From positions 124,001-188,000 of the forward strand of contig NZ_SELP01000005.1 of NCBI RefSeq assembly GCF_004145845.1: a stretch of 64,000 bases of DNA, in the 5' to 3' direction. Shown in pieces: positions 553-3,006 of this stretch. The stretch is from Loktanella sp. IMCC34160 (GTDB lineage: Bacteria; Pseudomonadota; Alphaproteobacteria; Rhodobacterales; Rhodobacteraceae). Made by a program: the position numbers and the translations under genes. Under the pieces are notes generated by a model that saw only the letters and a program-made list of their open reading frames with translations, was not told the DNA's origin and did no database searches. Every line of letters starts with the position of its first letter. Positions within the stretch are counted from its first letter, which is position 1.

Positions 553-1068
553 ATGTTTCGTTCGCTGACATTGTCTGCCGTCATCGCCGCTGCCGTCGCG
601 GCCCCTGTTCAGGCAGCGGACCTGCATTTCTGCTGGCGCGGCGCGAACGGGTTCACCATGACCGGCGAATTCGGCGTGCCCGACAGCGCCCTGACCGGCG
701 GCATGATCACCGAAGACCAGATCAGCTATTTCCGGATCACCGGATACGAGGTGGGCATCCCGGTTGGCAGCTGGTCGATGGACGACCTTGCCGCTGGCAG
801 CACCTTCCACCTGCGGTTCGACACCGCGACGATGAGCTTCCCAACCGGCGGCAGCTATCCCGGCCCCGCCTCGCAGGGTTGGAACGCCAATGGCGAAGTC
901 AACAACTGCGGCGACAAGGGATTCGGGTTCAACTCGGGCAACTACGCGCAGGACCTCTGCCTTTACGGGGTCTGGGTCGAACATTCCTCGATCGCGCCGC
1001 AAACGCCACTGCGCGCCTCGACCGTGGCCTATACGCCCGATTGCCGGCTGCGCGACCTGAACAGCTGA
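553..1068 (+). CDS. Secreted protein of unknown function, four cysteines
   Basis: A 171-residue protein I do not recognise. It begins with a clear Sec signal peptide (hydrophobic stretch at residues 6-20, probable cleavage after AQA near residue 22). The mature part is about 150 residues and holds four cysteines (HFC, NNC, DLC and PDC contexts), enough for two periplasmic disulfides. It is rich in Gly, Ser and aromatic residues and looks like a small beta-rich domain. The start is supported by a GGGGGG-type ribosome site about 5 bases upstream. It stands alone, between folC and a probable small-RNA unit; its role cannot be inferred from context. Confidence 0.75.
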   Translation: MFRSLTLSAVIAAAVAAPVQAADLHFCWRGANGFTMTGEFGVPDSALTGGMITEDQISYFRITGYEVGIPVGSWSMDDLAAGSTFHLRFDTATMSFPTGGSYPGPASQGWNANGEVNNCGDKGFGFNSGNYAQDLCLYGVWVEHSSIAPQTPLRASTVAYTPDCRLRDLNS

Positions 1069-1096: not shown

Positions 1097-1126
1097 TTGA
1101 CCGCGAATCAGTGATTCGCCTAGTGT
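1097..1126 (+). promoter_or_regulatory. Sigma70-type promoter with palindromic double GANTC (GcrA/CcrM-like) operator
   Basis: A -35 hexamer TTGACC (1097-1102) is followed by an 18-base spacer and TAGTGT (1121-1126). The spacer holds a perfect inverted repeat, GCGAATCA-G-TGATTCGC (1103-1119). Each arm carries a GANTC CcrM methylation site and a match to YGAKTCG, the motif reported for the cell-cycle regulator GcrA. Placement between -35 and -10 is what is expected of a methylation-sensitive or repressor-controlled promoter. Promoter function is inferred; the palindrome itself is exact. Confidence 0.6.
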
Positions 1127-1132
1127 CGGCCC

Positions 1133-1236
1133 AAGCGATGCGCGGCCCCTGTTCGCGCGGAACCCCTGAAAACAAAGGGGACGCAAAGATTTGGCAGGGC
1201 GGGAGGGCGGACATGGGTCCGTCCTTCTGTTTTCAC
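1133..1236 (+). ncRNA. Candidate small RNA with its own promoter and terminator
   Basis: From the predicted start near 1133 the transcript would run about 100 nt to an intrinsic terminator: stem GGGCGGAC (1204-1211) with GTCCGTCC (1216-1223), then TTCTGTTTT. Upstream is a second small hairpin, CCCC-N10-GGGG (1163-1180), followed by ACGCAAAG. No known RNA family is assigned. An alternative reading is a 40-codon frame from ATG 1138 to 1260, but it would run through the terminator stem. The 325-base stretch between the flanking genes otherwise holds only promoter elements. Confidence 0.45.
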
Positions 1237-1257: not shown

Positions 1258-1312
1258 TGATTCGCCCCCGATTCGTTCTTTGTTTGACTTGAACGACCCG
1301 ATTCTCCTAAAT
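1258..1312 (+). promoter_or_regulatory. Promoter of the rhodanese-LysM pair with three GANTC sites
   Basis: TTGACT (1284-1289), a 17-base spacer and CTAAAT (1307-1312) make a plausible promoter about 80 bases before the rhodanese start. Three GANTC sites lie here: two within YGAKTCG matches just upstream (1258-1264 and 1269-1275) and one, CGATTC (1299-1304), inside the spacer next to the -10 element. The arrangement resembles the upstream small-RNA promoter. Confidence 0.5.
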
Positions 1313-1393
1313 GTTGTGGAAGAGCAGCCACACTCGCCGCGCCTGCCAGCGCGAACACAATATATGGTGCGTGTGGAATTGGGGGAAAGAGTG

Positions 1394-2017
1394 ATGCAAC
1401 GTATTCTTGCAGGGCTTCTGCTTATCCTGTCGTCTGCCGTTTCGGCGCAGGATGTGCGGATCACGCCCAACATGGCCGCCGCGACCTACACCATCAACGG
1501 CGAAACTTTCACCATCAGCCGCGAACAGGATCAGGACAGCCTGCTGACCGGGGAATTCGCCCGGACCTCGCGGGCCTGCCCGCCGTTCTGTGTGCACCCG
1601 ATGTCGGTGGCGCCGGGCGTGGAAACCGTGGCCGAGCTGGAGGTGATCAACTTCCTGACCGGGCAGGTCGCCGCCGGGCGGGGCCTTCTGATCGACAGCC
1701 GGGTGCCGGAATGGTTCGCCAAAGGGGCGATCCCCGGCGCGGTGAACGTGCCCTTCTCGACCCTCGACGAAGGCAATCCCTACCGGATCGAGATCCTCAA
1801 GGCGCTTGGCGCCCGAGATACCGCGTCGGGGCTGGATTTCTCGGATGTGTTCACCCTCATGCTCTATTGCAACGGGCCGTGGTGCGATCAAAGCCCGCGC
1901 GCCATCCACAGCCTTCTGGATGCCGGATACCCGGCCGAGCGGATCAAGTATTACCGGGGCGGAATGCAGGATTGGCTGATGCTGGGCCTGACCGTCACCA
2001 ATCCCGGAGGTGGCTGA
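1394..2017 (+). CDS. Exported rhodanese-like domain protein
   Basis: A 207-residue protein with a signal peptide (residues 1-18, cleavage near SAQD) and a rhodanese domain in its second half. The domain shows the CH2A-like entry LIDSRVPEWFAKGAIPGAVN, the active-site loop start LYCNGPWCD and the closing YYRGGMQDWLMLGL. The loop cysteine that carries sulfur in rhodaneses is present, so sulfur transfer or thiol sensing in the periplasm is possible; the substrate is unknown. The ATG at 1394 follows a GGGGGAAAG ribosome site; the frame is open further upstream but without a signal peptide. The stop overlaps the start of the LysM gene (TGATG), so the two are co-translated. Confidence 0.8.
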   Translation: MQRILAGLLLILSSAVSAQDVRITPNMAAATYTINGETFTISREQDQDSLLTGEFARTSRACPPFCVHPMSVAPGVETVAELEVINFLTGQVAAGRGLLIDSRVPEWFAKGAIPGAVNVPFSTLDEGNPYRIEILKALGARDTASGLDFSDVFTLMLYCNGPWCDQSPRAIHSLLDAGYPAERIKYYRGGMQDWLMLGLTVTNPGGG

Positions 2018-3006
2018 TGACGATCTACGCCCAAGCCCAGCCCGCGCCCGCCATTCGCAAAAGGAAGTTCCCGATGATCCGTACCGTTCTTGCGCTGTTC
2101 GCCTTTGCTGTCGTTCTTTGCGGCTTCATCGTGTTCGACCCGATGTCGAAGATTGGCCAGACCGACACCGCCACCGCGCCCGAGGTTGCGTCGGCACTGC
2201 CCGAAGTGACCCGCGCCCAGACCGACATCGGGTCGCTTCAGGACGCGGTCGCGCTTGCCGGGGCGGACGCGCCCGCCAGCAGCGCTGCGCAGATCGCCGC
2301 CGCGACCACCCTTGGCGGGGACGCGGGCCAGCGGATTCTCGCGGCCTCGGGCGGGGTGCAAACCCGCACCGGCCCGACCGTTCTGACCGATGACAGTTCT
2401 ATTTCGGAGACCACCGCCGCGGTTCTGGCCGGTCTGGGCCTGAACACCGGGGCCACCGCACCCACGGATGACAGCCTGATGACCCAGACCGCCGGGGTTC
2501 TGGCCGGCATTCGCGGCGTCACCGGCGCGCCACAAACCGCCGCCGCCCCGCAATCGGCGCTGCAAACGCTGGTGATCGAGGCGCTGCGCGAAGGCCAGTC
2601 CGACAGCTACATCGACGAGATCGTGAACGCCGCGGCGACCGAGGGCCGATTGTCCGTTCCCGAAATCCTCGTCACCTCGGACGGGCGGGTCGATACCCAT
2701 GTGCTTCTTGCCTCGATCGTCAGCCAGGCCCAGATTGCCAACGGTGGCGCAGCCCCCGTCGTGCCCGAGGTGCCAACCGGCGGCTCCGATGGGGTCGAGG
2801 TCCGGGTGGTGCAACGTGCGACCGAGACCCAGCAATACACCTTCTATACGGTGAACGCGGGTGACAGCCTTGGCTCCATCGCGGTGAAGTTCTACGGCTC
2901 GGTCGAACACTACCAGACCATATTCGAAGCGAACCGCAGCATCCTGTCCTCGCCCGACCTGATCCGGTCAGGGCAGCGTCTGGTGATCCCCAAACTGGAC
3001 GCCTGA
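2017..3006 (+). CDS. Membrane-anchored LysM domain protein
   Basis: A 329-residue protein starting in an overlap with the rhodanese stop, behind a CGGAGG ribosome site. Residues about 23-41 form one membrane segment (uncleaved anchor or signal). A long Ala/Thr/Asp-rich, low-complexity middle (about 45-270) probably spans the periplasm. The last 50 residues are a single LysM domain (YTVNAGDSLGSIAVKFYG ... IRSGQRLVIP), which binds peptidoglycan glycan chains. The middle contains repeated motifs of the type TxxVLAGLGL / TAGVLAGIRG. Likely role: an envelope protein linking membrane and wall; no catalytic domain is visible. An intrinsic terminator follows at once. Confidence 0.85.
   Translation: MTIYAQAQPAPAIRKRKFPMIRTVLALFAFAVVLCGFIVFDPMSKIGQTDTATAPEVASALPEVTRAQTDIGSLQDAVALAGADAPASSAAQIAAATTLGGDAGQRILAASGGVQTRTGPTVLTDDSSISETTAAVLAGLGLNTGATAPTDDSLMTQTAGVLAGIRGVTGAPQTAAAPQSALQTLVIEALREGQSDSYIDEIVNAAATEGRLSVPEILVTSDGRVDTHVLLASIVSQAQIANGGAAPVVPEVPTGGSDGVEVRVVQRATETQQYTFYTVNAGDSLGSIAVKFYGSVEHYQTIFEANRSILSSPDLIRSGQRLVIPKLDA

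Follow-up and report, generated by a model that had tools for sequence, protein, structure and literature searches.

The analysed stretch of 64,000 nt (hereafter the window) comprises bases 124001-188000 of contig C17 in a 3.77-Mb genome, which belongs to a family that includes Marivivens and is the sole representative of its genus among the genomes compared. Close to its beginning, the end of a Mur-ligase-type gene and a gene for an unknown protein are followed by genes for a rhodanese-like and a LysM protein (Table 1). The 325-nt gap between the unknown protein and the rhodanese houses TTGACC at 1097, GAATC at 1105, GATTC at 1113, TAGTGT at 1121, and a stem-loop with a U tail at 1200-1234. 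An initial annotation had read these elements as a promoter with two GANTC sites in an 18-nt spacer and a terminator about 100 nt on, with a match to the GcrA motif YGAKTCG in each arm of a palindrome, and inspection of the sequence confirmed the arrangement as well as both matches (1112 on the plus strand and 1104 on the minus strand). At this locus a simple consensus scanner reported no sigma70 promoter and no terminator, in our opinion owing to the poor resemblance of TAGTGT to TATAAT and to the interruption of the T-run in the tail, TTCTGTTTT.

Table 1. Features in and around the predicted small RNA locus, in window positions
Feature	Position	Strand	Remarks
Mur-ligase-type gene, end			folC by family and position; upstream of the small RNA locus
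Unknown protein	553-1068		upstream of the small RNA locus
-35 hexamer TTGACC	1097-1102	+	TTGAC within 140 nt upstream at 13 of 16 loci
17-nt palindrome GCGAATCA-G-TGATTCGC = GCGAATCAGTGATTCGC	1103-1119		comparable palindrome in 1 other promoter of 12 (L095)
GAATC, conserved predicted CcrM site	1105-1109	+	TGATTCG (YGAKTCG) on the minus strand; starts at about -28 from the predicted start
Second GATTC	1113-1117	+	position not conserved
-10 hexamer TAGTGT	1121-1126	+	18-nt spacer after TTGACC
Predicted small RNA, ~100 nt	1133-1236	+	start placed from promoter spacing only
5′ hairpin (CCCC..GGGG)	1163-1180	+	differs between genera
Conserved stretch TTTGGCAGGGCG, proposed pairing region	1190-1201	+	GGCAGGGC in 14 of 16 rows; GGCAGGGGC in L094 and L097
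Terminator stem-loop with covariation	1200-1229	+	13-bp stem, 1200-1212/1217-1229
U-rich 3′ tail, TTTTC..	1230-1236	+	
Rhodanese promoter-like region	1259-1313	+	GANTC at 1259, 1270 and 1300; TTGACT 1284-1289, 18-nt spacer, TAAATG 1308-1313
Leader hairpin CGCGC-CTGCCA-GCGCG	1338-1353	+	loop complementary to UGGCAG of the small RNA; possible target
Rhodanese-like protein	1394-2017	+	Pfam PF00581, 5.9e-11; start resembles a signal peptide (secretion judged by eye)
LysM protein	2017-3006		downstream of the rhodanese-like gene

GANTC is about four-fold depleted in the window, with 68 sites observed against 287 expected from shuffles, a scarcity that fits a CcrM-methylated genome. Five sites nevertheless fall inside 1105-1304, against a Poisson expectation of 0.21, and allowing for all spans of that size in the window the probability of such a cluster is about 9e-4. 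The 17-nt palindrome as such is not rare, because the window holds 13 perfect inverted repeats with 8-bp arms and a spacer of 0-6 nt, three of them with a 1-nt spacer; it is conservation in relatives that raises the feature above chance.

In the window's own genome, which was the one searched for gcrA and ccrM, both genes were found. GcrA is encoded with a match to PF07750 over the cut-off (1.5e-47), and the single N6/N4 methylase (N6_N4_Mtase) carries a RAMA domain and has CcrM as its best NCBIfam match (NF050803; 1.8e-192, 638.8 bits, below the equivalog cut-off of 830). Just upstream of ccrM (L106, G000:C11:28178-28190) lies TTGACAGCGAATC, followed 6 nt later by another GANTC, a layout that matches the promoter at the small RNA (sRNA) locus.

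A module conserved in divergent relatives

BLAST with 181 nt in 101 relatives returned matches only in the own genome, in G049 (52 nt, a true member) and in G088 (24 nt). Because the element is too divergent for BLAST, we turned to synteny and covariance models. Homologues of the flanking proteins were located in 27 and 69 of 198 genomes, and 15 further loci were added for synteny. A covariance model (R1) was built from five sequences of the last 48 nt, which comprise UUGGCAGGGCG and the terminator and exclude the promoter. Across 248 genomes R1 gave 13 matches at E <= 1e-3, the five training loci included; among them G105 and G169, from two additional genera, scored strongly. These two loci were added to give R2, a model of seven sequences that is likewise promoter-free. 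At E <= 1e-4, R2 recovered the module in at least 15 of the 394 genomes of the family (47.5-69.2 bits), eight of them outside the model; this count is a lower bound, since the 15 best first-look candidates were scored per genome. The family is patchy and occupies a minority of genera.

Six weak R1 matches (L087-L092, 27.8-33.7 bits) were dropped: five lacked GGCAGGG (L088 has GGCAGGGT), and five lacked TTGAC within 140 nt, L091 having a TTGAC with no GANTC there. In 20 genomes with a rhodanese or upstream-gene homologue and no detected sRNA, R3 gave three weak matches in two genomes (23.7-25.8 bits), none convincing. A phage origin was likewise rejected: a degenerate 20-nt pattern matched nine viral contigs, none of which resembles the module by model (best 10.3 bits). 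A search of plasmids gave no module match. Against Rfam, no family scored above gathering: the window yielded two tRNAs only, a lax search of 1060-1400 gave five matches (best E 0.37), all below, and 11 related loci gave none.

The terminator stem shows covariation. Over 16 loci (15 distinct rows), 99.0% of the cells in the 13-bp stem are paired, and five of the 13 pairs changed on both sides, in 20 cells, a count reached by 0 of 500 shuffles. The covariation score of 0.431, from an alignment fitted to the tested structure, exceeded 500 of 500 shuffles and every slid version, and an earlier seven-row MAFFT alignment gives the same picture. Two other measures were unexceptional: 69 of 500 shuffles had as many doubly changed pairs, and 182 of 500 had as many pair types. 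Two G-U pairs are near-invariant (14 of 15 and 15 of 15 rows), which suggests a constraint on the base sequence of the G-rich 5′ arm as well. The predicted fold of bases 1133-1236 has an energy of -46.5 kcal/mol (z = -2.7), and 2 of 200 shuffles did as well. UUGGCA is largely single-stranded in some members; in others, the window among them, it is paired in part.

By sequence, the members have the make-up of an intergenic sRNA with an intrinsic terminator: their own promoter (13 of 16 loci), no conserved open reading frame (ORF) and a covarying terminator. A coding role can be framed around 40 codons at 1138-1260, where a frame starting MRGPCSRG... opens 5 nt past the predicted start, and a WQG frame occurs in several relatives. 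The product has no Pfam match, however, 1-, 2- and 5-nt loop insertions shift the frame inside the module, and the start codon, length and C-terminus vary by locus, with L084 lacking any ORF of at least 15 codons, so that we consider a small protein extremely unlikely.

A GANTC site at a fixed promoter position

At 13 of 16 loci a TTGAC lies within 140 nt upstream of the module, and at all 13 a GANTC keeps the same distance from a TTGAC: it starts 8 nt past the initial T, and the TTGAC itself stands 63-91 nt before the module. Counting every TTGAC found, 13 of 15 have the site; L083 and L094 each carry an extra TTGAC without a GANTC. At seven of the eight loci newly found by R2, TTGACNNNGANTC precedes the module by 63-81 nt, L098 being the exception. 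The chance expectation for TTGACNNNGANTC is about 8e-5 per locus, taking 60 positions and the genome-wide rate (10 matches), and genome-wide these 10 matches compare with 5 for the reversed control, only a mild excess.

We aligned 12 promoters, leaving out the near-identical Paradonghicola; TTGAC...GANTC was itself the search pattern for this set. With both strands considered, YGAKTCG is present in all 12, a count that the three promoterless loci stand outside. The site reads CGAATCA in 11 and, with the motif reversed, TGATTCG in L093. The -10 element starts with TA in all 12 (TAG in 11), and this TA is exactly 18 nt past the hexamer in 12 of 12. A further GANTC lies downstream of the first in 8 of 12 promoters and overlaps the -10 element as TAGATTC in five. 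G049, G120, G157/Marivivens and Paradonghicola share the arrangement TTGACsGCGAATCA, an 18-nt spacer, TAG, a variable stretch, and then approximately TTTGGCAGGGCGGGGGGGCGGGC-loop-GCTCGTCCTTCTGTTTT.

The perfect double-GANTC palindrome, which the initial annotation had taken as the key feature, did not hold up in that role, since only the -35-proximal GANTC is invariant and the 12 promoters include one other comparable palindrome (7-bp arms), L086 being one base short. Judged from these promoters, the window palindrome is one solution among several, and the invariant is the -35-proximal site. The expectation that relatives would keep the order promoter, palindrome, terminator was borne out for the promoter and terminator module, which are mostly retained, and failed for the palindrome.

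By eye, one more GANTC is seen about 11-13 nt before the -35 element in 7 of 12 promoters (L083, L084, L086, L096, L099, L100 and L101), about 20 nt, or two helical turns, from the conserved GANTC.

The promoter is absent at three of 16 loci (L080, L082 and L098), where the 140 nt upstream are free of TTGAC and the 300 nt upstream are free of GANTC. These modules (in G185, G105 and G296, respectively) come immediately after a rhodanese or LysM gene, as they might if the conserved unit were a 3′-end module, made up of the terminator and GGCAGGG and working chiefly as the terminator of the upstream gene or as an RNA derived from its 3′-UTR, with the promoter secondary. We regard this reading as unlikely. 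In 12 of 15 genomes a promoter of fixed geometry lies 63-91 nt upstream, and a plain terminator would need neither the conserved UUGGCA before the stem nor the near-invariant G-U pairs.

Gene neighborhood

A rhodanese homologue is the next downstream gene in 7 of 15 genomes (the window, G049, G120, G157, G185, G344 and G351), which would be in keeping with a leader or attenuator of the rhodanese gene that gives rise to no separate RNA. We find this very unlikely, since the rhodanese gene has a promoter-like TTGACT-18-TAAATG of its own (1284-1313) past the terminator, and since the next gene lies on the opposite strand in G169, G288, G296 and G390, where it is zapE, and in G333, where it is another gene. 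In G185 the 3′ part of the unit sits between two rhodanese paralogues. Upstream, a folC homologue is found at 12 of 16 loci within the DNA examined, and among the loci tested an AFG1 ATPase lies near L086, L093, L098, L100 and L101. The unit thus appears to accompany folC and zapE (AFG1-like ATPase) rather than the rhodanese alone. The proposal of an independent sRNA that flanking genes do not explain is upheld by this comparison: the module persists across genera, in most cases together with its promoter, and the downstream gene varies (rhodanese, LysM, zapE or other).

GANTC is dense upstream of the 22 rhodanese homologues, with 73 sites in 7700 nt (9.5/kb) vs 17 in 13002 nt of coding sequence (1.3/kb), and it is so even in relatives without a detected sRNA. 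This density with or without the sRNA might indicate that the cluster works at the level of DNA, for example through hemimethylation-dependent protein binding, and that the RNA is incidental. Such a role is very improbable in our view, because GANTC at the sRNA loci keeps to set positions in the promoter, and because the RNA module that follows is conserved and shows covariation.

Among the relatives without a detected sRNA, the rhodanese promoter spacer of L037, L041, L044, L049 and L051 holds two GANTC (TTGACYGATTCG, with the second GATTC before TATAT). The rhodanese promoters of L038, L039, L042 and L046 have one.

A putative small RNA with a GcrA/CcrM-type promoter

We conclude that 1097-1236 is probably an independent sRNA gene, in which a sigma70/GcrA promoter at a CcrM-methylated site would produce an RNA of about 100 nt; the counterpart at L065 in Marivivens donghaensis would measure about 88 nt. 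In the mechanism that we propose, RNA polymerase with the housekeeping sigma factor would start near 1133 from TTGACC-18-TAGTGT, and GcrA would read the m6A-marked YGAKTCG beginning at about -28 and stimulate promoter opening. Output would shift when replication hemimethylates the site and again when CcrM re-methylates it, and the position of the promoter GANTC suggests that sRNA output follows chromosome copying. The transcript would end at the stem-loop at 1200-1229, giving a product with a variable 5′ hairpin, the conserved UUGGCAGGGCG stretch, a G-U-rich terminator and a U tail. Such an sRNA would most likely use UUGGCAGG to pair with mRNA leaders at CCUGCC-type sites.

The promoter has precedents in Caulobacter, where a GANTC between -10 and -35 is reported to mark one temporal class of cell-cycle promoters and the site in ctrA P1 is given as -28/-29 (PMC4287350). 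GcrA is described as stimulating open-complex formation at m6A promoters (PMC7403470), and YGAKTCG as the activating form (PMC7987155, citing Haakonsen et al. 2015). In the account given for Brevundimonas (B. subvibrioides), GcrA bound intergenic regions of several hundred genes and transcription was raised in a small subset only (PMC7987155). Since binding there exceeds activation, a YGAKTCG site alone does not prove control. Like the GcrA/CcrM sigma70 promoters ctrA P1 and podJ P2 as described in these reports (PMC4287350, PMC7987155), the window promoter has a YGAKTCG-type GANTC between -35 and -10, at about -28, in a genome with gcrA and ccrM; unlike them, it would drive a non-coding RNA. 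The initial annotation's view of a promoter controlled by methylation or GcrA stands as far as the site kept inside the promoter and the encoded GcrA and CcrM are concerned, and the dependence itself is a prediction from the sequence.

Several known RNAs are comparable in part. RepE, the antisense sRNA of repABC replicons, is also small and has a GANTC in its promoter region (PMC11514494); as presented there it is cis-antisense inside repABC, whereas the window sRNA is intergenic, beside folC and rhodanese genes. By description rather than sequence, the window sRNA resembles Caulobacter CcnA and CCNA_R0116, non-coding RNAs proposed to act within the CtrA/GcrA/CcrM circuit (PMC8959179, PMC5988900); the latter report predicts CcrM sites at Caulobacter non-coding RNA promoters, and its control of R0116 is a prediction (PMC5988900). 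Also by description, it is like StsR, UpsM, CcsR and SorX of Rhodobacter sphaeroides, short sRNAs of the Rhodobacteraceae (PMC8307010, PMC5089854). It differs from StsR in promoter type, stsR transcription being described as raised by RpoHI/RpoHII (PMC8307010). As far as we could check, this is a new sRNA family of a known kind, a judgement that takes in the Ruegeria and Paracoccus sRNA surveys (PMC4809877, PMC5107571) by their descriptions.

In word searches of the open-licence literature, with comparison by description, we recognized no account of the window RNA. What seems unusual is that a predicted methylation site holds its place in the promoter of an sRNA from genus to genus. To our knowledge, small RNAs whose promoter has a methylation site visibly under selection are few. 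Should the system be confirmed, it would tie DNA replication and methylation compactly to regulation at the RNA level in the Rhodobacteraceae, and a covariance model is now available for an RNA that Rfam lacks.

We tentatively extend the proposal to a trans-acting sRNA family whose transcription would be coupled to the moment at which the replication fork passes the promoter GANTC fixed in 12 genera, so that methylation is linked to post-transcriptional control. In this extension, which we regard as possible but well short of probable, the rhodanese mRNA, with its CUGCCA-loop hairpin and GANTC promoter, would be one partner.

The rhodanese leader as a candidate target

A leader hairpin with a CTGCCA loop is present in the window, L036, L045, L047, L049, L065 and L069, and its stem differs in sequence between genera and still pairs; these hairpins were selected by loop sequence, so the listing is a description and not a test. 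Of the leaders adjacent to the sRNA, 5 of 7 have the hairpin with a stem of at least 4 bp, vs 2 of 32 leaders without the sRNA (Fisher 7e-4, relatedness ignored), in counts assembled by hand that leave out Paradonghicola and the duplicate Marivivens locus L065 and for which absence of the module beside the 32 was checked. G135 (L049; 4-bp stem) and G136 (3-bp stem; genome 77% complete) keep the hairpin, and the sRNA is apparently absent from both, which weakens the case for a simple pair of sRNA and leader target. Conversely, the sRNA is present and CTGCCA absent in G351 and G185, and the Marivivens sRNA has AGGCAG, which leaves one loop base unpaired. The leader hairpin could be an RNA element in its own right.

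Pairing energies did not single out this leader. In duplex predictions, 18, 143, 37, 51 and 99 of 500 shuffled leaders did as well as the five leaders that have the site; for G351, where the site is missing, 269 of 500 did. The energy of seed-leader pairing is not distinctive, as 13% of 2320 background stretches in the window reach as good a score. Genome-wide, GCCTGCCAGC occurs 31 times vs 24 for the reversed control. Of 30 sites inspected, a 5-bp stem was found only at the rhodanese leader and a 4-bp stem at three others, and all 30, the rhodanese leader included, lie under long open frames, so that leaders are inseparable from coding sequence in this count. Upstream regions gave -18.6 kcal/mol for the rhodanese, -18.0 for gcrA, -17.4 for the hypothetical gene at 553, -16.7 for LysM and -14.3 for ccrM, with no clear winner. 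We therefore treat the rhodanese leader as a possible but unlikely target of the sRNA.

Two further observations concern these upstream regions. That of gcrA (L102) could form nine uninterrupted pairs with the sRNA seed about 140-150 nt before the gcrA start, at the energy given above. In addition, TTGGGGG(A), an unusual Shine-Dalgarno-like stretch, precedes the rhodanese start (1379-1385) and, by eye, recurs in several relatives.
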